DNA from: Hesseltinella vesiculosa
Lineage: Eukaryota; Mucoromycota; Mucoromycetes; Mucorales; Cunninghamellaceae
DNA length: 64,000 bases
Assembly (NCBI GenBank): GCA_002104935.1
Contig: MCGT01000002.1
Span: forward strand, 434,001 to 498,000
Direction: 5' to 3'
Below the pieces are notes generated by a model, which did not search any database, had not been told where the DNA came from, and saw only the letters and a program-made list of their open reading frames with translations. The position numbers and the translations under genes were made by a program. This document shows positions 12,619-33,147 of the stretch, piece after piece; the first letter of the stretch is position 1, and each line of letters starts with the position of its first letter.

Positions 12619-12935
12619 TTCCTGTGCTCCTTTATTCCAAGTGTGTCTATTTTTTTTTTGTTATCCCAGTCATGTTTTGATATCCTTTTTTTTTTTTTTT
12701 TTTTTTTTTGCGATCCTTGAATACTGTATTTCCAAAAAGAAAGACGCAATTCAAAAAAGCGAAAAGTGTACAGGGGGCTACAAAAGAAGGAATAAACCGA
12801 GTCAGCTTAGAAAGGACGACCAATTAGATATTGCACTCACCAAGTAATGGGATAGCACCAGATAGGTGGAGAAAAGAGTGAGAGGGTGGTGAGTCGTTCG
12901 TCCAAAAAAAGAACACACACACTTACGGGAAAGCC
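12619..12935. other. convergent 3' region
   Basis: 317 bp between the Rrm4-like stop and the Fanzor 1 stop. It contains T9 and T21 tracts (~12652-12710) and no ORF of interest. It probably holds the 3' UTR of the Rrm4-like gene. Confidence 0.5.
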
Positions 12936-15900
12936 CTAAACTTGTACATTTTCATTATGTACAATGGGGGAAGCGGTAGGAGGAGGGTTGTCCATCGGGT
13001 CGGGGTCATTGGGTGCACCTTGGACGTCACCGTCTTGATCGGCTACCTTCTGAGAAAGGACTTGGGGACGGGAGGCACCTTCGATGGCAAGACGCGCAAC
13101 AGACAGGATGTTCCTCGCAGCATTGCAGTCGCGCTGCCACATCTGTCCACAGTGTTGGCACACAGTGACAGAGTGCAGGTTTGATCCAGCAATTTCAATG
13201 GGCTTGCAACCTTGACGGCCACACTTGCTGCACACTTGAGATGTCCACTTTTCGTCCGTGGACAACAACACCAGCCGATCTTCTCGATCTGCTCTTTGGA
13301 GCAGCTTCTTCAAGCGGGCGGCCAGGCCGCTGGGATGGCCTCGAAACGAACGACGACCAAATTTACCATCACCCAAGCAAACCAGGGTTACCTTGCTCTT
13401 TGGTGTTGCAACAAATTCCTGCTTCCTCCATTTTTGTCTATAAAATATATCAGTTATCGTTCAAGGCTGCATTACATCAAAACATACCGAGGAAGGGGTG
13501 GTGGGGTATTCACGCCGGTCAAGACATCAGGTTCATTTGCGAAACTCTGAGGTGCATGTGGGCTTGGAGCAGTTTCGCTACGCCGGCGGGAGGACGAATC
13601 GATCATTGGCTGTAAGGACAGCGGTGAGGTCGAGGCTAAGGCGAGTGCAGTGTCACCCACATCTACAGCAACACTGGGCTCAGAAGACGTGCCAATGATT
13701 GACACCGAAGGATTGTCGGTTTCAATCGGTAAAGAGTCTTGTGACGTGCTGCTACCAGAGGATATGTTGATCGATGGAGCACGGTTGCCAGCAATGGCAA
13801 TGGCAATTGCGATTTGTGAATCTGCAATGCTAGTGGCACTTCCACGGCCCATTTGGAGTGAAGGCTGGGTAGAGATCAATGGCAATGGAGGAGTAACTTG
13901 CTGCAAGGTCGTTGTTGCTCGGGTCCCAGTTTGCATTGGCTCTTGGGGCTGGGGATTATCGATAGAAATTCTGATCGAAGGGGCGTAGCCTTCCGCAATA
14001 GCGATAGCGATAGCGCCATGTGCAGTGGCAATGGCAGTGGCGCGACTTGTTGGGTTGGTGCCCACGCTTGGTTGTGATGTTGCATGCGGTGGAGCGGAGA
14101 GGACAGGTGACAAAGCCAAAGAGGGTGCGGATTCTGACGTAGCAGTAGCATGTGGGCCATCATGCTCATATGCGTCCATATCAACTTGCTCTTCTTGAGG
14201 AGATTGCATTGACACATTTCCTTCTGGCACAGTAAGATCTACCAGTTCACGGTCGTTCTGTCGTCCATACTTGTTACCGCCTGTCAAGAAGATATTGACG
14301 AGTTCCCCATCAGCTTTCTGGCGGCCTCTGTAGTTCAGGAATCGAAGAGGTGGCAGATGTTCAGCGTAAAAAATCTTTCAGCAGCTGAGCTCGTTCCAGG
14401 ACAGCCTTCGTATACAGATCCAACTTTGATAGGTCCATGGTACAGGGGGAGGGGATCGCGCTTTCCAAGGTGTCGATGCCATGCTGAGACTTGAGGTCAC
14501 GGATCCGTTGGTTGGTCCTGTGGAAGCCTGCGTCGTGGAAGTATTCCTTGGAGGAGTAGCGGCGTATTTCGTGCCGGGGGTCAGAGGCCATAGCTCCTTC
14601 ATTGTCGTAGATCGATGTATCGGAACCGTCAACAGCAACGTATACTTGTCCAACACCAGGGTCAACACCCCATACTCTGCACTCAGACAGGTCGTCGGTA
14701 TCGATATCTTCCAAAGTGAGGGGCGCTTCTTGATTAACAGGCTTCAGTTTTTTAAATGTTGCCGAGACTGCGTACCCGTCAGACATCAGAGAGTCTTCGA
14801 ACACCCCTTGGCTAAATAGAAGAATTAAGAATGAGTACCATCTTTCCCTTCCCACCCCTACTTACTTTTTAAACTTTGTCATGTCAAGCAGGTCGAAGTT
14901 CTTGTGAGGAGCGTAAAGAGCTCCAGGCTGGTTTTCATTGCTTGACGATGACTGTGGAAGCAGGTGGTGGAGGCCAAAATGATGCAAAAGGGTCCCCCAT
15001 TGTGGAAGCGTTGATGCGGACATAGCGAAGTCGGAAGCTAGGAACAGGAAGCAAGGCAAACATGCGGCACGGGGGACTGAAGAGGTAGGCGGGCGGCTTG
15101 AAGCAGTCTTGGGCCAATTGCTGCTTTGCAGTTTCCACAGTGTCTTTCACCATAGTACGAGAATTGGCGTCAAAAGCAGGCGGGAGTTTGTTGGCATCAA
15201 AACGGGCCGACTGGCTGTTGATTAACTTTGCAATGGCCGAGACAAGTCGCGTTCGTTTCTGGTGCCCAAGTTTTGCCCAACCAGGTATTTGTGATAATTC
15301 ATGCCGTACCCAACTGAGCGATGCTTCCTTCTGGTTGTTTGCTGGCTGCTCTTCGTCGGCTTTGTTCCACATCTCAAGCGTGCCTAATATCTTTGCCATG
15401 ACGGGTAAAAATAAATGTGGCCATCCAGCATACGTGGCAGTCGTCAGCATAACATTGTTGTCACCATCAGCAATGCCGAGGGCAGGTTGGTCGTCCGGGG
15501 CACTGCCAGCATTGCTACTAACATCAGAGTCAGAAGCAGCTACAGATTGCAAGTTCAAGCCACCAAATCGGGTTGTTGCTGAGACTGACAATGCTGTATC
15601 AAGGGACATCATGTCGTCATCACCGTCTAGATCATCAGACGCCAGCGGTTCAAGCGGGATCCAAGGGGCGGTAGGCGTGTTGTGCGAGGAGGAGGCTGTG
15701 GCAGGTTGGGTGGATGCAGTAGCTTCCCGGCTTGCTTGCTCAAACGTTTGCTTTCGATGGCGCTCTTCGGCCAGCGCTTGCCGTTCTTGTAGATCTTCTT
15801 GAATTTGCCGAATGGCCGGCTCCAGTAGCGCATGGCAGTCATTGATGATCAGGTTAAATTTGCTTTGGACTTTTCCCTTCAAAAGTGAATCCATTGAGGT

Positions 15901-17055
15901 ATAGTCAGGTAATTCGGGTTCGAATTTTGGGTCTTGGGCAATGCGATCATAGAGGTATAAAGCATAAGCGCGGGCCTGTCCACTCTTCAGTTCCTGCTCA
16001 AAAAAAAAAATTAGAACCGCGTTTCTTTTTCTGCCTCCACTATAAAACGTCATTACTGGGACTAAACGCAGAAGCTTTGCTGACATGAAAGTCACAAGAC
16101 ATTGTGACATTCCTTCCACAATATGGTTCTTCCAATCCTTTGCGCATTGCATAGCTGTCGATGAGAGTGCACTGGAAAACGTCACTGGGCGACGGCCAAC
16201 AGGGGACGCGACGGGTGGGCACCATGGCTGGTTTCCAGGTGGACCATACTCTGTACGAAATGTAGCAAATGCCGAGGTCAGATCTGCCCGTAATTCTTGC
16301 GACAAGGTTCTTGTGTTCGTCACAGCTTTTCCCATTACCAGCTGGAAGACAGAGGTGAAGAACACTTGGTCGAACAAGGCAGGTGGGAGGCTATCATTTC
16401 GTCGACGCAACAGTGTCGTCACAAAATGGCGAAGGAACAAGTGTGAGTGGATGACGATGTCTCGGTTGTGAGACGCCAGCGACCTGACGGCAGAGATGAA
16501 CGTAGATGGCACGGTGGAGTCAAGGGCATTATTGGCTGGACGCTTTATGAGATTTGCAAGACCATGCTTCAGAGTGTGGTGGCGCGTGGTCCCGCCAAGC
16601 TTTCTCTTTGTCAACACACGTTTGGTGGACTTGTGCGAGTGGCAGCGGTAGCTGGAGGCTCTGGAATGCGTTTGTGCGGTCCGGCGTCGGATTTCGGCGG
16701 CTGCCAAGGAGGCTTCATCACCTAGCTTTTCCAGTCTATCCACTTCTTTCATACATGTTGGACAGGGTCGTTGGTCGCCAAATTTTGGAAGATGGGCGGA
16801 AAACTCAGCTCTGGCATCTTGCTTGGCTTTCTTTTCGTCAACACTTTGCTTTCGTTTTACAGTGCTTCTTGATCTTCCTGTTCTTTGACGTTTTGATCCT
16901 GAATCTAGACAACCTCATGTGAATCAGATCTTTGCATTGTTTATCTTGATTAGCTTACGTGTTGCGCTTTGCGCTTCGCTTGCTTCTTGACGTTCTAGTC
17001 TTATCCTTCTTTTCCTAAACATTCTTTGTTTAAAGTTGTGCGTTTCAATCGTCAT
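12936..17055 (-). pseudogene. Fanzor-type RuvC nuclease gene, copy 1, frameshifted
   Basis: A minus-strand gene. Exon 1 is 16959-17055, joining in phase to 16904 and a basic, charged N-terminus with RPCPTC. Further introns lie at 15994-16056, ~14812-14868 (phase 2 on both sides) and ~13443-13488. Nuclease signatures in order: QLVMGKAVTNT; LLPVPSFRLRYVRI; GVDPGVGQVYVAVDG (RuvC-I Asp); NIFLTGGNKYG; LVCLGDGKFGRRSF; DEKWTSQVCSKCGRQG; and CQHCGQMWQRDCNAARNI (second CxxC plus RuvC-III Asp). Two lesions interrupt it. The frame changes between 15059 and 14938, best placed near 15015, and one extra base sits in the A6 run at 14368-14373 (T6 in the coding sense). A ~250-residue low-complexity insert rich in AIAIA lies at 13490-14230. 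Fanzors are RNA-guided nucleases of eukaryotic mobile elements. The lesions make this copy a pseudogene unless they are assembly errors. Confidence 0.82.
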
Positions 17056-17754
17056 TTCAAACAAATCTTGGCAGCTTGGGATAAAGGGATGAATGAAAAG
17101 TGAAAAAGAAAATATAAAAAGGAACATCGGAGTGAGAAAAAAGTAAAGCAGCCAGCTACACGCGTACAGCATTGGTAAACAGATGGTTTTTATTCAGTAG
17201 CTATTTTAGTTCAGCAAAGACGCTTTTTCTATATCCTCTTTACGTTCCTTGTTTATATCTTAGTCCTTTCGTTCACTCCTACTGTAAAAGTACTTGTCAC
17301 CTTCCTCTTATTTTCAACTAATTGTTTAATTCTTTTCGTTTGACCCCATGTCTCTTTTTTTAACCTATTGTCTTTTCTAGACCCCAGCGAGTTACTTCTT
17401 GGAGGATCATAGGCTGCTCGTAAAAGCTGCTTCGAGGCCTTGCCGTAATTCTCTGTCACAGTCTTCTTGTTGGCGGTGTCGTTCCCCATCAACAATTGAA
17501 AGACGGAAGCGAATTCTTGCTCCATTGTCATATCAAGGAAGTATGGTTCAGTTCGTCATCGCATACTAAACTTACCCAGCAATTTGTAACTCCGGGAGGC
17601 GACTCAACACCAGACAATGCGACATTAAAAAAAGAAAGGCATCGCATCATGGCACGATTGAATGTCCGCCAAAAAACATGACGTTGAGTTTTTTTTTTTT
17701 TTTCCTGTCCTCTTCTCTTTCGGAAGCCCCCTATTTTTTTTTTTTTTTCTAACC
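17056..17754. other. intergenic region holding a Fanzor relic
   Basis: The gap between Fanzor 1 and the divergent SR gene. Besides the relic at 17253-17531 it holds T14-T16 tracts (~17691-17750) just before the SR gene start, which probably form its 5' leader. Confidence 0.5.
17253..17531 (-). pseudogene. Fanzor relic fragment
   Basis: A 92-residue minus-strand reading frame contains EFASVFQLLMGNDTANKKT followed by a basic, low-complexity tail. The first part matches the Fanzor 1 segment FFTSVFQLVMGKAVTNTRT and the Fanzor 3 segment VMQLVIGKQVTNTNP in the same order. Neither RuvC motifs nor a zinc finger follow. It is read as the remains of a fourth copy, cut down to the middle of the N-terminal half. 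A chance match over such a short stretch cannot be excluded. Confidence 0.55.
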
Positions 17755-19132
17755 ATGCCATCCGATGATCACCTTTCATCGCACCGACTTTATGTTGGTA
17801 AGTGTACTTATTTGGAAACGAATGGGTAGACCAGGATCACCTGCTCTAATCCTTGCCATGACTGGGTATTCCTAGCGACTCAATTCGTTTTATTTTTTTT
17901 TCCTACCAGGGCGACTCAATCCAACCGTGGGTCGACATGAGGTCAAGGATATGTTTTCCAAGTATGGTCGTGTCGTAGATGTCCAGCTCTTTGTAAGTGA
18001 GAATGCGAGAGGATACAAAGAAATGCATAAATACGTTCGATCTCTGTCGAAAACATCGAGATGCTTGCAGACCCAAATGCTCATCCAATCTCTTGCCTTT
18101 GATTAGCCAAACTATGGCTTCGTGGAATTTGACGTAAGTATCCAATGCACAAAGGAAAATGGGATATATGTATGTGGCTTACCGTTTCGTGTCTTATTAT
18201 ATTGCTGTAGCGCTCTCGAGGTAGGCGAAATCGAAGGGCAAGACATTATCAGCTGGGTAGGAGCTGACACTGATTTTTCATTAGATGCAAAGGAAGCTCG
18301 TCGCTTCCTGCACGGTCACAAAATTGCTGGTGAACGCCTTTTGGTTGACTATGCAACCGAACCTGGCCGCAACAAGGAACGTCGAAGCCGCCCTACTACT
18401 GACTCTGAACGATGCTACAACTGTGGCCAAAACGGCCATGTGTAAGTACCAAAAGCCTTCTATTTTATCATTTGCTCTGACCATCCTTTGCTTTTTTTTT
18501 TATTCAGTGCTCGCGAGTGGTAATTTTATAACAGTTACGAGAGAATGGCACGAACCCTGTAGACTGATTTTTTTTTTTTTGCGGTAGCTCAATGCGTCAA
18601 GGCACTGGCGAACGCGCCAAGCTGTATAAGGACAACCGTTGCTTGTAAGTCCTTGGTGGGGGTGGGTGTTTTGCCTTGACCTTGCGGTGTAGTTGGTGTG
18701 TACATGCCTTGACTCTCTCTCTTTTCACTAGTGCTTGCGGCGAGCCAGGCCATCGAATGGCCAACTGTCCTAGGTAAGTCTATGCTCTTCCCTTTGCTCG
18801 TGCTCATTACTTGTTCCCTTCTGATTAGTGGTGGTAGCAAGCGCTCCCGACACCGTTCTCGCTCACCCCGTCGTCGATCCGTGAGCCCTCGTAGCCGTAC
18901 TCGTTCGCCACGTCGCAGCCGCTCTCGTACTTCTCGACGCAGCCGCTCTCGTTCCCCTCAACGTAGCCGTTCGCGTTCTCCCAAGCGTAACCGTTCGCGT
19001 TCTCCCAAGCGTAACCGTTCGCGCTCTCCCAAACGCAGCCGTTCGCGCTCTCCTCGACAATCGCCACGAAATGGAAAGGACCGCTCCATGTCGCGCTCCT
19101 TGTCCCCTCGACGCTCCCGATCACCCGAATGA
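17755..19132 (+). CDS. SR splicing factor with RRM, two CCHC zinc knuckles and RS tail
   Basis: Nine exons: 17755-17797, 17910-17992, 18107-18133, 18211-18220, 18285-18441, 18508-18519, 18588-18644, 18732-18773, 18829-19132. They splice in phase to 244 residues. Order: a short RRM (HRLYVGRLNPTVGRHEV, then NYGFVEFDRSRDAKEARRF), knuckle 1 (CYNCGQNGHVAREC), knuckle 2 (CFACGEPGHRMANC), then an Arg/Ser tail of about 90 residues with repeated RSRSPKRN units. Such proteins bind exonic enhancers and recruit the spliceosome in the nucleus. The RRM plus two-knuckle layout is like plant RS2Z proteins; animal SRSF7 has one knuckle. Exons 4 and 6 are micro-exons of 10 and 12 nt. Both are needed to keep frame and to complete the RRM and the first knuckle. 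Introns that split such short pieces leave room for regulated splicing of its own mRNA. Confidence 0.9.
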
Positions 19133-19831
19133 ATGATTTTATTTTCAAAATAATGCACTTCTGCTTTCATTTGAATGTGGAATGAATCGAATGCATACCT
19201 ACCTGCTTTCATTTGAAATTGGCACGTTTTTTTTCTATCAACCAATTCAAAATAAAAACTTTGATGAACCACTCTCTAAGAAGGATAGGATGGGTCTGGG
19301 CCATTTTCTTTTTTTTTTTTTTTTAACTCGTGGCTAACCCTTCTTATTGGACTGGGAACGTCACACCCAAGGAAAAAAACAGGTCCATAACACATCAATT
19401 GTGCGCCTGCGGAATTGAGGAGAGCTCAAACATCTCGATCGACTACTTTTCAATACCCTCGCACTTCAGAGTCCGTACAGATGATCAACAGGCTTTGTCG
19501 TCTTCGCTAGGCTCTATCACCTTCCCTTCAGACCCATTGAGTCAAGGAGACCGTAGACAAAAACGAGAGGACCTTTTTGATTGGTTCACCGGCCAAAAAG
19601 TAGTTTATTCGCATCTCCATGAAATACCTGGCATCCACCAAATGATGGCGGAAATCCGTTTTTCATTAACAAAGCAAACAGAAAAGCTCATTTATTTTGC
19701 ACTTTGGTTTGGCGACGTAGTTTGGAGGTTTTTGTTTCATCACCGCCGGGGTCGGGAACAGGAAAAATGCCAGACGACGTTCACGTCTTTCTTTTTTTTT
19801 TTTTTCTCGCTTACAAAGCTGACAAAAAACG
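19133..19831. other. intergenic region
   Basis: About 700 bp. A 175-residue open frame crosses it (19330-19857) but lacks an ATG start, ends inside the next gene and runs into a poly(T) tract, so it was not called. T-rich tracts at ~19308-19324 and ~19791-19805 flank it; the second is probably the leader of the gene downstream. Confidence 0.5.
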
Positions 19832-20590
19832 ATGTCCCCAACAGTTTATGCTTTTGACAACACAGACGCATTGTCAGCTGGGCTCAATGCTTTTGTAGAG
19901 AAGGTGTCGCGAGATGCTATTGCTGATCATGGCAAGGTGTCTGTGGCTATCTCTGGTGGCTCGCTACCCAAACTGCTCGCAAAGGATCTCAAGAACAACA
20001 AGAACATCGACTTCAGCAAGTGGCACATGTTCTGGGCTGATGAACGATGTGTTGGCTATGACGATGTCGACTCCAACTATAAAGAAGTCAAGACACAGCT
20101 GCTGGATGCCATTCCCATTCCTGCCAGCCACATCCATCCTATTCAAGAAGCCGCCGCCATTGCAAAGAACACCGAGGCTGCTGCCCAAGACTACCAAAAG
20201 CAGCTCGAAGCCTTCTTCGGTGCCTCTTCTCTGCCCCGTTTCGATCTGATCCTTTTGGGCATGGGCCCCGACGGCCACTGCTGCTCGCTTTTCCCTGGCC
20301 ACCCCTTGCTGCAAGAAACTCACCGCTGGGTAGCGCCCATTAACGATTCCCCAAAACCTCCTCCTGAACGCATTACCCTTACCTTCCCTGTCGTCAACCA
20401 TGCCCGTCTTGTGGCCTTTGTGACTGCCGGCGAAGGCAAGCAAGACATGGTGCAAAAGATCATTGAGCAACCTGAGCTGAACCTGCCTTGCCAGCGAGTC
20501 CAGCCTACCAGCGGTTCAGCCTACTGGTTCATCGATCAGGCTGCCGCCGGTCAGCTCAAGCCCTCCTCCTATGGCCGCTACAAGTTGTGA
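19832..20590 (+). CDS. SOL3: 6-phosphogluconolactonase
   Basis: One uninterrupted exon of 252 residues starting MSPTVYAFDNTDALSAGL. Family signatures are present: VAISGGSLPKLL near residue 38, FWADERCVGYDDVDSNYK near residue 66, and LILLGMGPDGHCCSLFPGH near residue 140, which holds the catalytic His of this sugar isomerase-like fold. It hydrolyses 6-phosphogluconolactone in the oxidative pentose phosphate pathway, in the cytosol. The length matches the eukaryotic enzyme (~250-260). It is one of the few intron-free genes here. The start is the first ATG after a T-rich leader and no upstream exon is needed. Confidence 0.95.
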   Translation: MSPTVYAFDNTDALSAGLNAFVEKVSRDAIADHGKVSVAISGGSLPKLLAKDLKNNKNIDFSKWHMFWADERCVGYDDVDSNYKEVKTQLLDAIPIPASHIHPIQEAAAIAKNTEAAAQDYQKQLEAFFGASSLPRFDLILLGMGPDGHCCSLFPGHPLLQETHRWVAPINDSPKPPPERITLTFPVVNHARLVAFVTAGEGKQDMVQKIIEQPELNLPCQRVQPTSGSAYWFIDQAAAGQLKPSSYGRYKL

Positions 20591-21406
20591 TGGTCCCCCG
20601 AGTTTGTTTGTGATTATTAATATGATTATTAATAAACGCACCCAATTGATTATCAAGTTTATATGGTTGTTTCGTCGCGACCTGATACGCCTATCAACGA
20701 TGGTTTTCTATTTTTTGAGCACGCCTTCCGATCATTGATGGCCAGTCCTGATCAATTACGATGTCCAAGTGTTCATTGCATTGATAGATGGCTGTCCCCC
20801 AGTGTCTCTTTCCAGCAAATCCAATCAGGATTTTTTATTTCTACTACTTTAATTTTACTGTATGACTGGTGCATTTCACAACTATTCCCCTGTTCTTAAA
20901 GGTACATTTTGTATCCAATGGGGTAATATACGCTGAAAGCAATTCTTTTTCAGACTTTCCCATTTCAAATCCATTGGAAAAATCTATTTCACGCATAAGA
21001 GACATGATATTTCCAAAGTATGTAACAATTGTGTATGCCATTGCTTTCCGATGCCAGTAGTATTTGTAAGGAACGAATACTTTTGTATTTATCTTTTCTC
21101 TATTGGCAACACAAATTTTTTCATCGGGAAATATATTAGTTCTAATGGATACCATAAGACAAAGCGACATGTGTTTCATCCCAACATGCAAACTATGTGG
21201 AGAATTTCCAATTGTAGGAAAAAGATGTCATATATGTGATGGCAAAATGGAAAGGAGGGAAATGCCATATTCTATCAAGATTTTCATGATTTAGCAAAAT
21301 GTTCTAACATTCGTGTTACCTTGTAATTCTATCCCTTTAAAAGGAAATTTCCAACCATGATGAAATTTTTCTCGGTGGAAATATTTTCTCATCCGGAATT
21401 TCCATC
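20591..21406. other. AT-rich intergenic region
   Basis: Beyond ~20.84 kb the composition becomes clearly more AT-rich than the flanks, and open frames are short and overlapping. One with a zinc-ribbon pattern is listed separately (21145-21294). The rest looks like degraded coding or non-coding DNA. Confidence 0.45.
21145..21294 (+). CDS. small zinc-ribbon-like ORF in AT-rich patch
   Basis: A 49-residue frame from ATG 21145. It contains CFIPTCKLCGEFPIVGKR then CHICDGK, i.e. C-x2-C-x9-C-x2-C, a zinc-ribbon spacing. The open frame extends upstream without an ATG, so it may be the end of a longer or broken gene. It lies 110 bp before the AT-rich orphan gene and shares its composition. No homologue was recognised. 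Confidence 0.35.
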   Translation: MDTIRQSDMCFIPTCKLCGEFPIVGKRCHICDGKMERREMPYSIKIFMI

Positions 21407-22258
21407 ATGTTTCCTAACGAGATACTTGCTACCATTGCCTTTTATTCGAACAATATCCATGTTGCTATCGCCTTTGGTATACCTCTTACAAGGGAGATGA
21501 TTCTCAAGGAGAAAGGCCCTGGTGTTCTCATGAGGAAACTTCTCTTGGAATGTCCTTCTGAAGTGTATCACCTCAGGAAATGGATACCTCCTGATTGTGC
21601 TCTTGCATATGCAATTCCCAATGTAGAATGGATACAATTGGTAAATGTCATATGGGATGCTGATATGTATTCCAATCAAGCATGTCAACTGGCATTTTAT
21701 ATGGATTTCCAATGGGGTATAATTAACGTTAGACATGATGATAATGTAAATGTAGACAAAGAATATATTCCTGATGAAACGAACAAATATAAATTTGTAA
21801 ATGATGGTGATTGGGAAACGGCAATACAAATGGGATTGACACTTGAGAATGTCGTCATGAACAAATATGTAGAAGCATTGCCACATATGGGATTAACAGA
21901 TGATCAGATCAAGATACACACCTATCTTATGGACCCATTTCCTGAGGACGATTTAGAAGATAGACTTTATGATGAAGATTGGGAAGAAATAATTGGATCT
22001 TCTAGCTACTCGGGATATTATCAAGATCATCCATATGCTGCCTTTCCATCGTACAATCACTCATGGAAAAGGGCAACACAGTTGGAATACGATGCAGAAA
22101 GAAAAGATGATACCGATGTAGTTTATAGAGATAATTTTCATGAAAATCTGTATTATCCCCATCCATCAGACATATGTATCCAAAGTGGAAATATAGAAAA
22201 ATTAGACTTTGGATTATATTTCTGGTGTCGATATGAAGAAGATCCAGCTCTTTTTTAA
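21407..22258 (+). CDS. AT-rich orphan protein, possible F-box-like N-terminus
   Basis: A single intron-free frame of 283 residues beginning MFPNEILATIAFYSNN. The opening (PNEIL-x3-AF) resembles the start of F-box or ankyrin-associated proteins, but the rest is not recognised. The C-terminal half is acidic and aromatic (DPFPEDDLEDRLYDEDWEE; YSGYYQDHPYAAFPSYNHSW). Codon use favours A/T at third positions, unlike the neighbouring core genes, and there is no intron in a region where most genes have several. These traits suggest transfer, for example from an AT-rich DNA virus or another element, but that is inference. It may also be a fast-evolving fungal F-box-like gene. Confidence 0.55.
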   Translation: MFPNEILATIAFYSNNIHVAIAFGIPLTREMILKEKGPGVLMRKLLLECPSEVYHLRKWIPPDCALAYAIPNVEWIQLVNVIWDADMYSNQACQLAFYMDFQWGIINVRHDDNVNVDKEYIPDETNKYKFVNDGDWETAIQMGLTLENVVMNKYVEALPHMGLTDDQIKIHTYLMDPFPEDDLEDRLYDEDWEEIIGSSSYSGYYQDHPYAAFPSYNHSWKRATQLEYDAERKDDTDVVYRDNFHENLYYPHPSDICIQSGNIEKLDFGLYFWCRYEEDPALF

Positions 22259-22370
22259 AAATTATTCTCTCCATAAAAATTATTCTCTCCATCGATCTAT
22301 ATGTTACCTTTTTACTTCCACATTTGATACATGGGACAATGGAATATACAATGGTAATTTCTTGTTTTAA

Positions 22371-22610
22371 AATTATGAAGCGCATTTTTTACGAAAAAAA
22401 AAATATAAAATAAAAAGTGGAAGGTCAGTAAACTAAACACGTGCATACAAAAAAAAAAAAAAAAAAAAAAAAAAAGTTGGTGGATGGTGCAGAAAGGGAC
22501 TAAAGGAGTTCCAAGATCCTTTCGGCGCCAACATTCCTTGCTGTCAACGGCTTCTTTGATGGCTTTCATGTGAGATTTGAGGGTGTCTTATTGTGTAGAA
22601 GGGACTTTTG
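22371..22610 (-). pseudogene. duplicated 3' end of the Puf6 gene
   Basis: About 240 bp closely resemble ~32973-33283, the last codons and 3' flank of Puf6, in the same orientation. Shared text includes GTGGAAGGTCA(G/A)TAAACTAAA, a long A-run followed by GTTGGTGG, GGAGTTCCA(A/G)GATC and TTTCGGCGCCAACATTC. On the minus strand the encoded tail still resembles the Puf6 C-terminus (KAIKEAVDSKE versus KSIKEAASSKN) but its frame is broken. It abuts the tandem array directly at ~22611. Confidence 0.8.
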
Positions 22611-24757
22611 CAGACATACGACAAGAATCAAGTAAATGAAACTGCCAAAGACAGCCCAAAGTAAAAGAGGAAGGTCACAATCTAGGAAAGTAAGAGAAAG
22701 GCTGAGGTATCTGATGCGCTAGTTGCTGCTTTTTTTTTGTTTACCTGCTGTGACATAGACTGTCCAAGGCGAGAGCATCTACATGTCCCACGTCGTAAAA
22801 TAAATCTTTGTCATGACTTGTTGGTCGAGCAACGTTGCTAAGAACTAGGAAGCCCGCAAGTCATGCGCCGAAGTGTCGCAGCAGTGGTTTGTGATCGCTA
22901 TCCATGAAGAGTACAGAGGAATAACGGCAAGCCCAAAGTGCAGACATACGACAAGAATCAAGTAAATGAATCTGCCAAAGACAGTCCAAAGTAAAAGAGG
23001 AAGATCACCATCTAGGAAAGAAAAAGAAAGGCTGAGGTATCTGTTGTGCTCGTTGCTGCTTTTTTTTTTTTTGTTTACCTGCTGTGACATAGACTGTCCA
23101 AGGCGAGAGCATTTACATGTCCCACGTCGTAAAATAAATCCTTACCATGACTTGTTGGTCGAGCAACGTTGCTAAGAACTAGGAAGCCCGCAAGTCATGC
23201 GCCGAAGTGTCGCAGCAGTGGTTTGTGATCGCTATCCATGAAGAGTACAGAGGAATAACGGCAAGCCCAAAGTGCAGACATACGACAAGAATCAAGTAAA
23301 TGAATCTGCCAAAGACAGTCCAAAGTAAAAGAGGAAGATCACCATCTAGGAAAGAAAAAGAAAGGCTGAGGTATCTGTTGTGCTCGTTGCTGCTTTTTTT
23401 TTTTTTTGTTTACCTGCTGTGACATAGACTGTCCAAGGCGAAAAGCATCTACATGTCCCACGTCGTAAAATAAATCTTTGTCATGACTTGTTGGTCGAGC
23501 AACGTTGCTAAGAACTAGGAAGCCCGCAAGTCATGCTACCGAAGTGCCGCAGCTGTGGTTTGTGATCGCTATCCATGCAGAGTGCAGAGGAATAACGGCA
23601 AGCCAAGAGTCAGACATACAACAATGAGACATGTAAATGAATCTGCCAAAGACAGTCCAAAGTAAAAGAGGAAGGTCACCATCTAGGAAAGTAAGAGAAA
23701 GGCTGAGGTATCTGATGTGCTAGTTGCTTCAATTTTTTTTTGTTTACCTGCTGTGACATAGACTGTCCAAGGCGAAAAGCATCTACATGTCCCACGTCGT
23801 AAAATAAATCTTTGTCATGACTTGTTGGTCGAGCAACGTTGCTAAGAACTAGGAAGCCCGCAAGTCATGCTACCGAAGTGCCGCAGCTGTGGTTTGTGAT
23901 CGCTATCCATGCAGAGTACAGAGGAATAACGGCAAGCCCAAAGTGCAGACATACGACAAGAATCAAGTAAATGAATCTGCCAAAGACAGTCCAAAGTAAA
24001 AGAGGAAGATCACCATCTAGGAAAGAAAAAGAAAGGCTGAGGTATCTGTTGTGCTCGTTGCTGCTTTTTTTTTTTTTTGTTTACCTGCTGTGACATAGAC
24101 TGTCCAAGGCGAGAGCATTTACATGTCCCACGTCGTAAAATAAATCCTTACCATGACTTGTTGGTCGAGCAACGTTGCTAAGAACTAGGAAGCCCGCAAG
24201 TCATGCGCCGAAGTGTCGCAGCAGTGGTTTGTGATCGCTATCCATGAAGAGTACAGAGGAATAACGGCAAGCCCAAAGTGCAGACATACGACAAGAATCA
24301 AGTAAATGAATCTGCCAAAGACAGTCCAAAGTAAAAGAGGAAGATCACCATCTAGGAAAGAAAAAGAAAGGCTGAGGTATCTGTTGTGCTCGTTGCTGCT
24401 TTTTTTTTTTTTTTGTTTACCTGCTGTGACATAGACTGTCCAAGGCGAAAAGCATCTACATGTCCCACGTCGTAAAATAAATCCTTACCATGACTTGTTG
24501 GTCGAGCAACGTTGCTAAGAACTAGGAAGCCCGCAAGTCATGCGCCGAAGTGTCGCAGCAGTGGTTTGTGATCGCTATCCATGAAGAGTACAGAGGAATA
24601 ACGGCAAGCTCAAAGTGCAGGCATACGACAAGAATCAAGTAAATGAATCTGCCAAAGACAGTCCAAAGTAAAAGAGGAAGATCACCATCTAGGAAAGAAA
24701 AAGAAAGGCTGAGGTATCTGTTGTGCTCGTTGCTGCTTTTTTTTTTTTTTTGTTTAC
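22611..24757. repeat. tandem array of ~335 bp units (about 6.4 copies)
   Basis: The phrase ATAACGGCAAGC recurs near 22921, 23255, 23592, 23926, 24261 and 24599, giving spacings of 334-338 bp. Copies are nearly identical apart from poly(T) length (8 to 16), a small indel (GGCGAGAGCAT versus GGCGAAAAGCAT) and a few substitutions. Each unit contains arms CATGACTTG and CAAGTCATG about 36 bp apart that can pair, enclosing the 12-bp palindrome AGCAACGTTGCT. On the minus strand some units read as a two-exon membrane peptide with GT-AG borders. The array begins at the Puf6 duplicate and stops in the T tract of the last unit. Confidence 0.92.
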
Positions 24758-25131
24758 AGCTTTTCCACTTTCAAATGTCGTATGTTTCAGGATAAATGTG
24801 TCGTCTGGGGAAATGAATGCCAAGAGGTGAGGATAGAAAGTCAACGGAGACATAGCCAATAGACCACATTCAAGCTTTTTCACCCTGCATGTTTTCAGAA
24901 CCTGAGCTTTCCTTGATTGACTAAAGGGAAAGAGATTTGGTACTTGGAAGAATATCACTGCACCTCCCTCCATTTGCTGAAGGACAAACGCTTTCCGCCC
25001 TTGATTTCCAAAAACATTTCATTCCGTGCCCACTCTCAAACCCTCGTTTTCACGTCGATTGAAACTCATCACTTCATCCCTGTTCTTTTTTCTGTTTTTC
25101 GCGTTTTTTTTTCCTTTGTACTTTCGTCCTG
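24758..25131. other. region after the tandem array
   Basis: 374 bp of unique sequence. A minus-strand open frame crosses it and runs into the array's T tract, but it lacks convincing composition. The last ~60 bases (TTTTTCTGTTTTTCGCG then CTTTCGTCCTG) look like a gene leader in front of the pseudogene at 25132. Confidence 0.4.
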
Positions 25132-25494
25132 ATGGGTAAGCGTCGTGCTCAGCGATTATAGGATCAAAAACCTCTGCTAAGCATTAACGATGAAACGGAG
25201 GCCAAGGAGGCCCCCATTCTTGAAATCCAACGGCACATTAAGGCGAAACTGTAGAATGCCAAGGACCACAGCAAGACCAAGACGGAGCTGGACAATGTTT
25301 TACGGCTACCATAGCTCGATGGCTAATATCCAAACGAGGGGTTCCATGGGGAAATTTTCAATCAACAACCGTAATACAAAACGCTGTTGTTTGATAGGAA
25401 GATGGTGAAGGTTGTCAAGCATATCTCTGACGTGTTCTGCACCTGCAGAAATACCAGGAAGAGGCGGCCGAACAGATGGGTAGTTAGTTTGTAA
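25132..25494 (+). pseudogene. pseudogene with five in-frame stops, family unknown
   Basis: From ATG 25132 (MGKRRAQRL) one frame stays protein-like for 120 codons, broken only by stops at 25159 (TAG), 25252 (TAG), 25312 (TAG), 25324 (TAA) and 25372 (TAA), and ending at TAA 25492. Pieces such as LLSINDETEAKEAPILEIQR, HSKTKTELDNVLRLP and LLFDRKMVKVVKHI look like real protein. Each stop differs from a Gln codon by a single C-to-T change. The parent family was not recognised. A T-rich leader in front resembles those of expressed genes nearby. Confidence 0.6.
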
Positions 25495-25623
25495 CATCAA
25501 GCAAAGTTGTTTGAAGGAGAAAAAAAAATTATGCAGGACTAGCGGAAGGAAAAAGCGTCGTGCTTTTTTTTCCTCTCTTATTCTCGTTTTTCTTTTATTT
25601 CATCATTCCCTATTATTGTATTC

Positions 25624-28600
25624 ATGGAACAACAACATCTACCGTTAGGAGCCAGCAAAAATATCATGCAATGTTGGTTTTTGATCCATATTAATGTACC
25701 AACAGCAAAGCTGATTGAAATGATACGTGATGTAGACCGCTTCGCTACAACTCATCTACTGACACGCCAGCAAGCCATGATCCTGCTAACGTGGGTGCGG
25801 AAGCACCGGAGTGGTAATATGCAATGAGAGTACAACGTCGGCATTGGTATTGACTTCGTTTTTATAACTAGGATTACGTGTTTGCGAGGCTTGTGGCTCA
25901 CCTTATCATCAAACAAGCCGATCTCGACAATGTCCATTTGATGTCCCTCCATCACATCGTAAATGCAGCTTCTTTTCAGCTTTTGCATGCTATTTACCTT
26001 TTATTTTTGATAGCAATCGTGGCCACAACAAGTTCTGATCGGGATATGATGAACGAGATCAACGATCTTCAGCGTCTTGGCGATGAGCAGCTGCGAGAGG
26101 CAGCACGAAATCAACACCCGCCTGAAACATGCCCAACCTGCGGTCTTCCTGGCCACTCGCGATCGTCCAACCCTGCCTGCCCATTCAGAGCTTTAAGCAA
26201 GAAGCAATTCATGGCATCACGTTTGCCTGCCTCTGAAGATTACACTCGCATCCGTAGCTTGGATGCCATTGTCCGACCAACCTATCGCAACGTCCTGATC
26301 ACCAACATTCGCGCCAAGTCCGATTATCTGCGTAGGACAATGACACGGCTACAACTTTTCCTGCTGGATAATGCCACCCATCACCCCGATCAAGTCCAGC
26401 CTTTTTTGTTTACACAGGACGGCTTTTACTTAATGACTCAATTAACACATGGTCACTTGAATGCATTCCTGGAACGGTCCGATGAATGTGTGCCAGATCC
26501 TGTTCTAACTCACTGGCATGAATTCAACCAAGATTTGATCAACGTCGCCACATATGACACCCCTGGTCATACCACCGTGCTGTCCATGGCCTGTAAGCTT
26601 CAGGCTTCTGCAAACCGTAATCACATTACGGAGAACTTTGAAGGCCGAATCAAGAAGTTCGTGAAATTTCGCTTTGCTGTTGACGGTGAGGTAGGAAGCA
26701 GATAGAAAAAAAAAGGGACTTGTCCAAACTTGACTGACATCCATATTTTTTTTTTCATTTCTTTGTAGGCACCTCCTTCCAGAAGCCTTGCTACCATCAA
26801 GGATTACGTCTACCAAAACTTTGCCATGGTTACCCGAAATATGGAACCCTTACCTGTGGAAATACCAGAACGACATAGGCCGCTTACGGTGCTTGTTTTG
26901 AACGAACTATGGGCGATGAAACCTCCACAGTTACCAATGATTACCCAAGAGACGCTGCGTGCGGACCCAGGCCGACATCTACCAATTTTACGAACAATAC
27001 TCGACGTATATGATCATTACCGTGCAACTAATGATGATGAAAACGATGTCGAAGTGCCCTCATTCACACTCTTGCCGCTTCCTTCATCCAAACCTCGGTT
27101 CGTGGACGTCACACCTGAAAACGTCATATCACTCACAGGCTCTCGGCAATCACCAAACAACCAAGTGACAAGATTGCCCCCCTTTTTGCCCAAGTTACAC
27201 GTCTTTTGGCAAGTGTTTGCTTTTGAAAAGCTTGGATACCCGAGGTACATGGATAGATGCAGGAGGGATAATGTGGAAAGAAAAAAACGAGCATTAGGTC
27301 GCTAACCTTTTTTTTTTTTTTTTAGTTTTGAATCACTCCACCGGGCATGGATTCGTGGCCATTTTTTTTCTGGTGTGATGCGAACGGATTGTCTTTGCCC
27401 GCCTACCTCATGGTCCTGATCCACCTGCCATTCACACACCCGACCTGGCCAACCAAGACGTTGCTGGCTTCACTCTCTGTGGTATTGATCCTGGACGGCG
27501 CGCAGTAATGACCACCTCCTTTGGACAAGGCCATGAACCTCATGCGGTACGCCGAATGTCGATGAAAGAGTATTGCACCACCAGCAAGGAGTCACCAATT
27601 CAACGAGATCTGAATCGTCGCAAGATCCTGGCCCTGCCATCGGTGCCTGAGCAAATGCATGCCTACGAGACAATGGCGGACATTGAGACGAACACGCCAA
27701 TGACCAAAACCGCCGATCCCGTTGCCATTCGGCAGACTGTGCGACACAAACTCATATGCTCCGGGTCAACCTTTGCTTTTTACAACACAGACCATGCGAT
27801 CTCCAACTTCGAATTAGTCAAAGGCAAACAACGAGCAATTGCCACAGCTGCCAATATCATCACCACTGGATCTCGCAAGTACACCCGACGTTGCCGAGAC
27901 AAGCATAAGACAAGGAAAAATCGGAAGCAACGAAAGCGACAGATGCAACGAAAATGGCATGCTCGTTTGTTGCAAATCAAGGATGAGTATAGCAAGACGA
28001 AATCACGCTTGGAAAATCTTCGGCGCTTGAGCGAACGACATGATGAGTTGATGGACCAGATGAAGCGCATAACCTTGGACCAGCCACTTGGTATGCACTC
28101 TGAAACTCGACCCGAAGAAGACAAGCACCAATTTGCTCGAGAAATGAACCATGCACTAGATCGACATGGTACAGCTACAGCTGCCATTAACACCGAAATT
28201 GGAGCCTTGGAACACCATCTCGTGTCACTCCAACAAAAATACCTCGACCCCTCAGCAACCAACGTAATACAAAAATGGGCTATTTGCGTTATCTCATGCT
28301 CCTTTTTATGTATACTCTAGCCGCATGCGAGCCAGCAAGTTGCCATATCACGGCTCCCAACAAACAGTGGATGGCCTGCCGCTGATCTCGTTCGGTGATG
28401 CCATGGTTGGTCGAGATGCCCAACATTTTCGTGGGCACGCAGTGGGCAGAACGAACAACATCAGATAGCACTTGATCAAACGACAGCACCAGGCGTTGTG
28501 CATGGTTGCCCACACCAACGAGTTCTGGACCAGCCAGGTAAGAAGGCCAAAAAAAAAATAAGAGCGTGGTGGGCATATCTAATTTGCTTATCCAAACTAG

Positions 28601-28849
28601 AACTGCAGCACCTGTGGTGGGCAACTGTCGCCCGTGCGCACGCAAGATCAGTCGTCGATCTTTGCCTTGAAGTTCTGCACCACTTGCCAAATGGTGTGGG
28701 ATCGAGACGTGTCCGCCGCTGCCAACATGTTCTGGATTCTTAGGCGTAAAAGTCGATTACGTCGAGCCATAAGGTGGGGGCGTTTGACGTTCGAGCACCG
28801 AGGGACGACTTCGCATGAATCTCTGGGCAGTATCTTTTGCAGGAACTGA
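25624..28849 (+). pseudogene. Fanzor-type RuvC nuclease gene, copy 2, decayed
   Basis: Exons 25624-25813, 25872-25958, 26014-~26692, 26769-27244, 27326-~28263, ~28340-28537 and 28601-28849. The N-terminus has two zinc knuckles in a row, CEACGSPYHQTSRSRQCPF and CPTCGLPGHSRSSNPACPF, the first made by joining exons 1 and 2. Later motifs: LLPLPSSKPRFVDV; FESLHRAWIRGHFFSGV; CGIDPGRRAVM (RuvC-I); IITTGSRKY with a very basic helix; LISFGDAMVGRD; NEFWTSQNCSTCGG; and CTTCQMVWDRDVSAAANM (RuvC-III). Lesions: a one-base frame change near 27385-27400, just before RuvC-I, and an in-frame TAG at 28466-28468, one C-to-T step from CAG. The junction at ~28264-28340 works only with a weak AAG acceptor. It is therefore a pseudogene, though most of the protein is still legible. 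Confidence 0.82.
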
Positions 28850-29428
28850 CCAATTCTGGAGTAGAGGTGTTGGACAAACTCTGGGATAGACTCAGGGTGG
28901 GGTTTCGCGCGCCAACACGGGCTGAGGCCATGTGAGGAGCCTAATCGCCATAAGCATATGAGCAGGCGATCTGCTGCCGTGTGCGATATTTCAATTTCAG
29001 GAGAGTGAGCCTATTAGACTTTTAACTGGCCATCACAGTGCAAAATGAACCACATTCTTTTTTTTTTTTTTTTTTTTGAAACCACATTCTGACTCTGATT
29101 TGCTTACCGTGATTAGCGAAGGCTCGGTGGAGACACAGAAATAGCGAAGCAGCTGAAGGGGAGCTGCTACCGTCTATGAATTTCAGATGGTCGAACTAAA
29201 TAATCAACGAGGTTCAGTGTCCACCGCTCGTAAAAAGATGCAGAGGAAAAGCCCATGGGCACAAAAAAAAAGGTGAAAATCACAACCCACGCCTCGCCCC
29301 TTTCTAGTTTTTTTTTTTTTTTGTTTCACGTTTTCCTCTTCTTTCACCTTTTTTTTCCACTTCCCAATCCCTGTCATCTCTGCTAGTACTTTTTCGATTT
29401 TTACTATTCCTCATCTTACCCTCTACTG
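28850..29428. other. spacer between Fanzor 2 and Fanzor 3
   Basis: 579 bp with T tracts at ~29059-29077 and ~29309-29322 and no protein-like frame. The last ~100 bases are a pyrimidine-rich leader for Fanzor 3. Guide-RNA sequence of Fanzor loci usually lies in flanking non-coding DNA, so this spacer and the one after 32572 are where one would look; nothing in the sequence proves it. Confidence 0.45.
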
Positions 29429-32400
29429 ATGAATATGGACACCGTACAGGAGCAGCGAATATACTTGGAAAGTTTGAAAAGAAGGAAAATACAACGACGC
29501 GAAGAAGAAGAGCAAAGAGGTAATAGGCGCAGTAAAACAACAAAACTAGATGAGCTGAACAAATGATTCATTTCAAAACATACAGGAAGAGTACCTTGCC
29601 CAAGATGCGGTGGATCAAACCATAATAATGCAAGATCTCGTCTCTGTCCTTTCAATCGTAAGTCAATCTGAAGAGTGCCTGATCTAATTTTTTTTTTTTT
29701 TTTACTGCAGGCTATTTCGGGGTTCCAACGGCAGCCATGGTTCGGCAGCAGAATAGACAAGGTAGGGCCGCTGGACAAGAGCGGCTTCGTTTGGAGCAAG
29801 CCAACCCTGATGTTCCACGCTGTCAACGCTGTATCCTTCCCGATGGCACCAATGATGGCTGTCTGCACCATGGCAACACGGCAAGCCACCTGTGCCATGC
29901 ACACAAGACCAGCATGGATGATATTGTCAATAACGTCCTTGGTCCAAGGCACCATAGCTTTGTGCGACGATGTACGTTGAAGCGAACGCTGACTTGTTTT
30001 GGTCGAACCCGGCGCCAGCGGCTTTCCGCAAAAATCAAGGTTATCCGGGAGGTTGAACGCATAGTCGATCATGTGCGCAACGTGTCAATCAAGGCCATGC
30101 TCTTTGTCCAACACCATGTGCTCAAGATGCTCAGTGCCGGCGAACCAATCCCTCCAACGCTTGGCATGCAAGGGTACGTGTACGGGGTGATGCAACTTGT
30201 CATCGGCAAGCAGGTCACGAACACCAACCCCAACTTGCCTCAGGACACCGCGAATGCTTTCCAAGCCTATGTGGAACAATTCGACGCTTCCGGTCTTCCA
30301 ACTGTTGACCCCCTTCCCGGGTACTCGCAATGCTATGCGCATATGGCCAAGACTCTGGCAACAACAATTAAGAACTGCCTTACCGAGGCATTTGAGCCTC
30401 GCTGCAAGGCATACATAGCATTTAAATTGCGTACCTTGATCTCTCGGACTGTAAGTGGGAAAAAAGAGGAGTACAGGAGTGACGATCTCTAATATACTTG
30501 TATATATATATGGATGATGCAGGACAAACCAAAAAAGAAGGAGCTCAAGAAATTGGTGAACTATGTCTATTCCAAGCTATCTGGTGAAGACCCCGCCAAT
30601 GAGCCAGCCTATGCTCGCCAATCTTGGGAGCGAGCTGTAGCCACAGTTCTGGAGACAACTTCCCTTGGTCCACAACCAGTAACTTTTGAAAACTTGACAG
30701 CCAAGTTTTATGAATACCTCCCAGTGATGTACAAGTTCCTAGGTAAATATACATAGAGCCTAGTCTGCAAGAAGATGACTCATTTTTTTTTAAAAGAGGA
30801 AATGGAAGCACACAGCACAGCACAAACTGACCAGCCATCCGAATGGGTCATTGTTGACGAAGCTGATTCCCAATACTGTCGTGAACTGTTGAGCGCAGTG
30901 GATGGATTTGACGATCTTGGACGACGACAAAAAGCACAGGTTCAGCGTGCCACGCATAAATTCATGAATAGCCCGGGCCTCCCACTGAACTTTGGTCCCC
31001 GTATGGAAGACGATATGCGCCAAGCCATCACAGCCTTGATTAGGACGACACGCTTTCAACTATCGATGTCCCACCAATACCTGCAAGGCAATGACATGAT
31101 CGACCCGTCGCTCTGTTTCAAATCCCAGTCAGCCTCGCTCTATCAAGCCACAAAAATGTACACCCTCCTTCCAACCCTCCGCTTTACACGCAAGTTCATC
31201 ACTATGGATCATCAATGCTGGTCCCGAGTATTCTCTCAAGCCGGGGTGCAACCAAGGCTAGTTGACGACCAGCTGTTTTTAACCCAGCTTGGAGAACACA
31301 CTCAGCAAGAATCTGACCTCCAGCAAGTCGGGAAGAAGTTCTTAGTGTTTTGGAAGACGCTCAACTTCAAAAAAGCGAACCTTAGCAAAGTGTAAGTTTG
31401 GAAGTGGCAAGGAAAAAAAAAAGTGGTTAGTGCAGACTTTTTACTCTTTTTTGTCGATAGCTTTGACACACTAGGCACTTACAACACAGATCTCCCTCCT
31501 GAAGAAACCGATATCGCGTTCACCAACTTGATTCGAACGGACGGTCATACAGTTGAATTCATTTGTTCGAAGAAAGCTGCCGAATTACTCCCTGACTTGG
31601 TGATGAGCGATCTGGATGATGAAGACATGGAAGTTTTTAAGCCTATGGGTGTGGACCCTGGACACTCGGTGCTTTTTACGTCAATGGATACCAATCGTCA
31701 ATGCCTCCGACTCACAAATCCTGAATTTTACCATCGCATCGGGCACATGCGCCGACGATACACACGCCAGAACAACGCCGAGCAACGTGGCATCAATCCT
31801 ATCATGTCAAGCCTACCGACCAAGAAAACCGTCTCTGTTCCAAGGTGGATGGCCTATTGCCGTCAACTATGCCTTTGCCTGCCTTCCCTGACAAATTTCT
31901 ACGGAAGTGCATTTACCAACGATCGCTTTCTTGCGTATGTCAGCAAGCAGAAGATACTGGATGAAGCTGTGAACATCTTTGTATCAGGCGGTAGGAAATA
32001 CAAGAAAAGCAAGGCTAGGTAAGCTAGAGGTGTGGGGGTGCGTAAGTGCAATGGAGCAATATTGCTCATTTTTATTTTTAGGAGGGGTGTGGATGTGGAC
32101 GACGACGAGAACGACGAGGGCGACGAAGACGGCGAGGATGAGCGTCCAAATATACCATTGCTTATGCTTGGATCAGGTGTCTTTGGTTTCACTCGCCAAG
32201 GGAAAAAAACCCGTATGTCGATCATCCCGAAACTTAAGGCAGCCGAAAAGGAGGGCCGTCTGCTTGTTTGTGTGGTGAACGAAGCGTACACCAGCCAGGT
32301 AATAGTAGCAAGACATGGACGGTAAAAAAAAAACGTGGGCTCACAATTATCTCTGGTTGTAGGTTTGCTGCTTCTGCCATCACCGATCATTATCCACGAA

Positions 32401-32572
32401 AAGAGCACTGGATCCACTGACGAACGCTACGTTTGGTCTTTGGGCAGTCAAGTATTGCCGGGTGTGCAGGACAAACGTGAACCGAGATAAGTCAGCCGCC
32501 ACCAACATCCTTCACTTGGGCTTGCGTGAACAAGAGCAGCTGGATCGGCCAGCTGTGTTTTGTCGCCATTGA
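29429..32572 (+). CDS. Fanzor-type RNA-guided nuclease, copy 3, intact
   Basis: Eight exons (29429-29519, 29586-29657, 29711-30450, 30523-30742, 30797-31391, 31461-32018, 32082-32298, 32363-32572) splice in phase to 900 residues with no internal stop. Order: a charged N-terminus (MNMDTVQEQRIYLESLKRRK), knuckle CPRCGGSNHNNARSRLCPF, a second Cys/His cluster (CQRCILPDGTNDGCLHHG), a helical half with QLVIGKQVTNTNP, then LLPTLRFTRKFITM, RTDGHTVEF, MGVDPGHSVLFTSMD (RuvC-I Asp), NIFVSGGRKYKK, an acidic Asp/Glu stretch, LLMLGSGVFGFTRQ, VNEAYTSQVCCFCHHRS and CRVCRTNVNRDKSAATNI (RuvC-III Asp). The Glu of NEAYTSQ sits where Fanzors carry their relocated catalytic Glu. Fanzors cut DNA guided by an RNA made from the locus. 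Activity is inferred from intact motifs. One acceptor (30796) is AAAAG. Confidence 0.88.
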
Positions 32573-33147
32573 AACCCTAAAAGGTTTTGTGCTTACACTA
32601 TCAACAGAGAGGATAGCAATGCTCCTGGTGATTATTGTTGGTCCTCTAGTAAGTCATGAAAAAGCGCGGAGTCAACAAAATACCCACTCATTTTTTATTA
32701 TTCTATAGGGTAACTTCTCTCAACGCAAATCCATGAAAGATACAGTGTGCTGACCAATTTCCTCTTTTTTTTTTTGTTGCTTCATTCTCGGTATCCCTGC
32801 AACTTTTGCTTTTTTCGCGTCATCCCATATTTGACTTTGCGTTGGGATATTTGGTAAGCTCATCTATTATTTGCGACTCGTTGCTAAACTTACCCCTCGT
32901 ATTTCTATTTTTATTAGATCTTTTGGTGACATTTTGTTTCTTTCACTTGCGACATTACATTGTGAATAAAGTGTATGAGTAGCGCATTTATTACAAAAAA
33001 AAAATAAAAAAAAATGGGGTGGGTGGGGTAAAAAGAAAAGAATGAATGCAGTGAGGCAAGAAGGGATGAAGAGTGGAAGGTCAATAAACTAAAAACGTGC
33101 ATGCAAAAAAAAAAAAAAAAAAAGTTGGTGGGTGGTGAAGAAAGTGG
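32573..33147. other. convergent 3' region, source of the Puf6 tail duplicate
   Basis: 575 bp between the stops of Fanzor 3 and Puf6. It holds A-rich runs near 32994-33013 and a long A tract at ~33104-33122 next to the Puf6 stop. The part from ~32973 onward is copied at 22371-22610. Confidence 0.55.

Follow-up and report, generated by a model that had tools for sequence, protein, structure and literature searches.

Fanzor1-type genes in two probable mariner-type elements of the Mucorales fungus Hesseltinella vesiculosa

Why eukaryotic transposons retain RNA-guided nucleases is an open question, and it is raised by a 64 kb stretch of the Hesseltinella vesiculosa (Mucorales) genome (C12:434001–498000, hereafter the window; genome of 27.05 Mb in 85 contigs), where an earlier note had described three distinct Fanzor-type genes and one relic within 20 kb. 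What has brought three such genes together, and could any of them still act as a nuclease? We think it probable that the genes belong to two non-autonomous Tc1/mariner-type elements flanked by TA, of which element 1 carries one broken Fanzor1 gene and element 2 carries a decayed and an intact one, and that the product of the intact gene is RNA-guided and dependent on a target-adjacent motif (TAM).

A six-frame scan of all 64 kb finds the ordered motifs GxDPG, NI-x-G-x-KY, E-x-[WYF]-TSQ and CxxC..RDxxAAxN as three complete sets, on the minus strand at 14.67–13.11 kb (gene 1) and on the plus strand at 27.48–28.73 kb (gene 2) and 31.65–32.51 kb (gene 3), with two lone NI-x-G-like matches, each without partner motifs, elsewhere. 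The second CxxC pair reads CxxC-x5-RD in all three genes. The Pfam Cas12f1-like TNB domain matches gene 1 (E = 1.6e-11) and spliced gene 3 (E = 5e-7, above the cut-off), and reaches 22.4 bits, under the cut-off of 26.3 bits, on the zinc-ribbon exon of gene 2. Searched as a single sequence, gene 3 matched no Fanzor; a profile (A2) built from four proteins, two of gene-3 type and two of gene-1 type, placed Spizellomyces SpuFz1 (8gkh) first among the nine matches listed from 177,635 Protein Data Bank sequences (E = 6.6e-9), and the chain of PpFz1 is absent among those matches. The Fanzor signature, as given in the available part of PMC10711439, comprises DPG at RuvC1, a glutamate six residues before the zinc finger and a CxxC..CxxC ribbon. 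All three genes have the DPG (GVDPG at 14655..14669, minus strand, in gene 1; GIDPG at 27481..27495, plus strand, in gene 2) and the E-x6-CxxC, read across the splice where an intron intervenes, and the ribbon is followed by D within 4–8 residues, as in the same source. The alternative glutamate, TSQ and C4 zinc ribbon with RD-x2-A2-x-N of gene 1 lie at 13110..13253 (minus strand), and in gene 3 the spacing of the motif D-x(125,275)-[TS][TS] published in 2013 is 191, inside the range. The TNB domain, the profile match to SpuFz1 and the DPG and E-x6-CxxC signature thus support, at the level of sequence, the assignment of all three genes to the Fanzor1 type, as relatives of the RNA-guided DNA-cutting Fanzors; the search against Fanzor/TnpB profiles on which the earlier note had staked this assignment returned matches.

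The arrangement of the genes follows from the copies of the DNA around them. Element 1 (family A; 12724..17638, minus strand; 4.9 kb, one Fanzor gene) has six other full-length copies (L009, L010, L011, L012, L015, L019), to which it is 96.8–98.5% identical across 4.9 kb; one truncated and one divergent copy also exist. Element 2 (24757..32973, plus strand; 8217 bp, two Fanzor genes) is 98.4% identical over its full length to a copy at C12:1090k–1098.6k with unrelated flanks. Homology between element copies breaks sharply at TA, the flanks being unrelated. Element 2 begins with CAGCTTTTCCAC and ends with GAATAAAGTG, and has TA on both sides in the window (left, 24755..24756, in the context GTTTA; right, 32974..32975) and in the C12:1090k copy, with TA after five of five right ends. 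The right end of element 1 reads GGAAATACAG followed by TA; the left terminal bases are changed in the window copy, which is without the left TA retained in L009, L010, L015 and L019. The termini, of the form TACAsTnTTTCC, resemble those of a 1.73 kb mariner of the same genome in which a 439-residue frame matches DDE_3, and the same terminal pattern is found in families B (nine loci fetched) and C (13 left ends). From these sequences, both elements appear to be non-autonomous, with mariner-type ends and TA duplications. A TACAGT direct repeat, considered as a recombinase site, was superseded by mariner-type ends and TA after family B had been seen, and a poly(A) run after element 1 was rejected as a sign of retroposition because introns are retained and no such run is found in the other copies.

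Gene 1 (12936..17055, minus strand; exons 17055–16959, 16898–16057, 15993–14866, 14811–13488 and 13437–12936 in our own model) is frameshifted in the window copy, with its first stop at codon 666, and is open over 1296 amino acids in the L009 copy on C2. Gene 2 (25941..28849, plus strand, exon limits approximate) is disrupted by a frame change near 27.39 kb and a stop near 28.47 kb; it has a deletion that is common to the C12:1090k copy and is not in L035, a gene-2 element without gene 3, and the stop is in neither. Gene 3 (29429..32572, plus strand; exons 29429–29519, 29586–29657, 29711–30450, 30523–30742, 30797–31391, 31461–32018, 32082–32298 and 32363–32572) is intact, with eight exons, seven GT-AG introns and 900 amino acids, and is the only open reading frame of the three in the window; a sibling copy was independently annotated as P0001 (92% identical in the region searched). 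Six loci have gene 2 along with gene 3 (the window, C12:1090k, C13, C59, C41 and C15), three with both ends and three interrupted by contig ends. The earlier description of the genes as separate family members is right for the gene-1 and gene-3 types (P0001 and P0003/P0004 are 27% identical), but genes 2 and 3 travel as a unit. One decayed and one intact Fanzor gene within element 2 suggest effector replacement.

The relic proved to be part of element 1. The open reading frame at 17253..17555 (minus strand), the sole fragment candidate found, resembles the Fanzor N-terminal FQLxMG stretch and otherwise lacks the motif set, so that the shared set attributed to all four sequences is complete in the three genes and does not extend to the fragment. 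It is present in all seven full-length element-1 copies, with 100 codons in six and 77 in L011.

Two further features of these gene families were observed. The L009 gene-1-type protein has a long low-complexity insertion in RuvC, with several AIAIAIA runs, between NI-G-KY and the zinc ribbon. L034 (C2:379400–386500) is a fold-back element in which two copies of gene 3 lie inverted to each other (94.8% over 6.9 kb); each outer end is a right end, and neither flank has the TTTA motif described below.

The flanks of the elements are asymmetric. Fifty left ends were examined, of which 12 were without an intact TA-terminus (by the script's pattern), 10 adjoined another element and 28 were clean, L013 having been excluded earlier with no recognisable core. 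TT stands ahead of the left TA in 22 of the 28 clean copies and T in 25 of 28, against a TT background of 0.10 in the window and longer loci; by family, TT is found in 14/14 copies of D, 5/6 of C and 3/4 of A. The mirror AA after the right TA is found in none of 39 distinct right flanks (41 in all; Fisher 1.4e-12). As a control, 20 ends of the ordinary mariner were fetched, of which 19 are distinct and 4 adjoin other elements, and TT occurs at 3 of the remaining 15 flanks, vs 22/28 (Fisher 3e-4). At element 2, TTTA belongs to the target, because the element lies in a 334-bp satellite (6.4 units at 22609..24757, forming its left flank) whose other units read TTTGTTTACCTGC; the units hold TTTGTTTA and then CCTGC. 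In Spizellomyces punctatus, the available text of Saito et al. (PMC10432273) describes CA ahead of the left repeat at Fanzor and ghost loci, and a measured SpuFz1 TAM of CATA. By this analogy, we predict TTTA as the TAM of the present elements, with a weaker NTTA for family B. The one-sided TTTA motif at the left flank is possibly new.

On the reading that we prefer, two Tc1/mariner-type elements would have inserted in the region, with the gene of element 1 recently broken. The gene 3 protein would most likely bind a guide RNA read from the right end of the element into the flanking DNA, and would cut DNA that matches this flank and bears the TAM (5′-TTTA); empty sites so cut would be refilled from the occupied copy, which would favor retention of the element, and a mariner transposase from elsewhere would move it.

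The noncoding right ends, from which such a guide would come, carry intron-like signals. Families A, B and C have at their right ends a pattern of donor, branch point and acceptor that occurs in 1–3 of 500 shuffles each (1/500 each for L009 and L013); on this pattern, scored on L009 and L013, a 63-nt intron is predicted in the 3′ noncoding right end of element 1 (12778..12840, minus strand). The 64-nt intron predicted in that of element 2 (32854..32917, plus strand) has a branch signal that is not strict, and the scored pattern misses it; at family D right ends, likewise, donor and acceptor are recognized by eye and the strict branch pattern is found in 0/3 by script. Families A, B and D have a branch-like CTA-x-x-CT-x-AC together with a pyrimidine tract and with an AG that lies some 50 nt ahead of the element end; a GTRAG donor precedes this AG by 63–69 nt, and the branch-like and AG positions are invariant over six sequences of these families. 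Such splice-site-like signals in noncoding right ends are possibly new. It is conceivable, as a speculation in which we place little confidence, that mariner-borne Fanzors recognize TTTA and obtain their guide RNA via splicing, the scaffold being a last exon that splicing attaches to the flanking guide, and that a two-gene element lets a newer effector take the place of a decaying one while the ends stay the same.

Several results weigh against the reading of the elements as carriers of an RNA-guided, TAM-dependent nuclease. Pfam searches of seven element frames found no transposase within either element, and the genome-wide transposase search, which covered the DDE_3 family (PF13358; 164 matches), placed none inside the window among the matches listed; it is because no DDE transposase of their own was found that the elements are called non-autonomous. 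The zinc-ribbon loops are 20 or 26 residues long, beyond the 12–18 of the published TnpB pattern, an expression that, in the available part of PMC10711439, served to mine Fanzor-like prokaryotic TnpBs. The DPG-to-TSQ spacing in the gene-1 family (L009, P0003, P0004) is 456 vs the 125–275 published in 2013, and coincides with the long insertion; we take the published range as describing the 2013 sample. Two 150-nt folds of right-end RNA showed no gain over shuffles (z = −0.03 and 0.49), and a search of Rfam with the right end gave no family at the gathering threshold. With respect to the motif itself, TT is found in 0/4 clean family B copies (1/5 with L040, which the script missed and which reads TTTTACAG by eye), and nine left ends adjoining a mariner lack TTTA, as does a tenth, L041, by eye; L040 and L041 belong to the 12 ends set aside for want of an intact TA-terminus. 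The mariner control is small, and without six flanks ending in CTG, which may be footprints or element ends, it becomes 3/9 (Fisher 0.036). Finally, TTTA stands at all 14 clean left ends of family D, and for ten of them no Fanzor match lies downstream among the matches listed, three of the ten running into a contig end.

Because these ten ends (e.g., L066–L072) have TTTA as well, the transposase may be the source of the motif, and we give a little less than an even chance to the alternative that TTTA reflects a directional target preference of the mobilizing transposase, unrelated to RNA-guided cutting; ghost elements served in trans would fit the same ends. The right flank begins with C or T in 33/39 cases, which may be part of an extended target site TTTAY and would also suit such a preference. 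Mariner target choice at TA is, on the other hand, normally symmetric, and no preference for TTTA is seen in the one mariner family tested, with or without its CTG-ending flanks. The corresponding pattern in Spizellomyces, CA before TA, moreover agrees with the TAM measured there.

It is less likely that the genes are dead passengers, with no present nuclease function, spread as cargo by a mariner transposase acting in trans. In its favor, only one of the three genes in the window is unbroken, and stops lie within 8 of the 46 genomic TNB matches (some possibly intronic); yet gene 3 is open over its eight exons, gene 1 is open in L009, and the relative P0002, with 57% identity in the alignment, retains the RuvC and zinc-ribbon residues.

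The density of Fanzor genes, which the earlier note had considered remarkable, turns out to be ordinary for this genome. Typed matches within 6 kb were joined into one locus (46/46 TNB matches, with 63/124 and 68/77 from two further searches), the untyped matches being further exons or pieces beside typed ones. The searches rate best candidates only, so that copy counts are lower bounds, and a locus that a contig end divides is counted twice. On this basis there are some 123 Fanzor-like loci in 27 Mb, or 99 without 38 weak gene-2-like matches, and neighbor pairs closer than 20 kb number 9 vs 10.7 expected for the 123 loci and 4 vs 7.0 for the 99. With genes 2 and 3 in one element, gene 1 in a multi-copy element and neighbors no commoner than chance, the idea that three genes in 20 kb are remarkable finds no support; a fungal genome with 42 Fanzor loci has already been published (PMC10432273, available text). 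It is highly improbable that the three are independent nuclease genes of the host, brought together to serve a host function: the density argument was the sole support for this, and TA-bounded exact copies in unrelated flanks and a neighbor frequency not above chance speak against it.

The locus adds a case to known Fanzor1-in-mariner elements, and a few of its features merit testing. As far as the available text of Bao and Jurka 2013 (PMC3627910) goes, Fanzor1 occurs in Tc/mariner elements including PUl-4 and PGv-1, and the present elements are like PUl-4 in their Fanzor-only cargo, mariner-like inverted repeats and TA duplications; the Mucorales elements ROr-4, PBl-3 and MCi-4 are MuDr-like with 9-bp duplications, unlike the TA found here. 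Element 2 differs from the elements described there in its two Fanzor genes, an arrangement for which the main text of that paper, in the part available, has no wording. The presence of two divergent Fanzor genes within a single element is possibly new, though an earlier report of such an element may exist. The likeness to SpuFz1/Spu-1 (PMC10432273, in part) lies in dozens of copies, inverted repeats, a set dinucleotide ahead of the left repeat, relatives without Fanzor, no internal transposase found, and SpuFz1 being the nearest solved sequence by profile. SpuFz1 is, by the same text, one locus of 2.1 kb that has a single open reading frame and a CATA TAM, whereas here we find elements of 4.9–8.2 kb, intron-containing genes and a predicted TTTA. 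PpFz1 of Parasitella parasitica, in the available part of PMC11423790, is a Mucorales Fanzor1 with a RuvC insertion, a feature shared by the gene-1 family, whose insertion is long; the TAM of PpFz1 is ATN, and it has a cyclophilin-binding FRI domain. Protein-database searches with the Fanzor-like proteins matched Hesseltinella only (P0001–P0004), and a literature search found no paper joining Fanzor with Hesseltinella or with Mucoromycota. This genome has about 100 Fanzor-like loci, which fall into several young families, mostly with a motif at one flank, and the effect of the nuclease on where elements persist thereby becomes testable.

The 1.73 kb mariner (L020:6362–8095) and a 774-bp deletion derivative of it (L009:2501–3274) often adjoin other elements with one TA in common, in both orientations and also in chains (e.g., C1:935–938 kb). 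A preferred adjacency of the mariner to left ends was considered and dropped, as mariner ends also adjoin each other and right-end-like sequences (by eye, at L091, L092 and L107). At the edges of L056, L081 and L015, 3-nt sequences that may be footprints of excision (TA-CAG-TA or TA-CTG-TA) lie beside present insertions, which suggests repeated use of the same sites.

Within the window, the sequence upstream of the satellite, at about 22380–22600, is by eye a degenerate copy of 32976–33200, to the right of element 2, and sits beside a PUF-repeat gene. Between the two elements, 19826–20587 and 21341–22255 hold an open 6-phosphogluconolactonase-like frame (PF01182, E = 1.9e-78) and, next to it, a 305-residue frame without a Pfam match.

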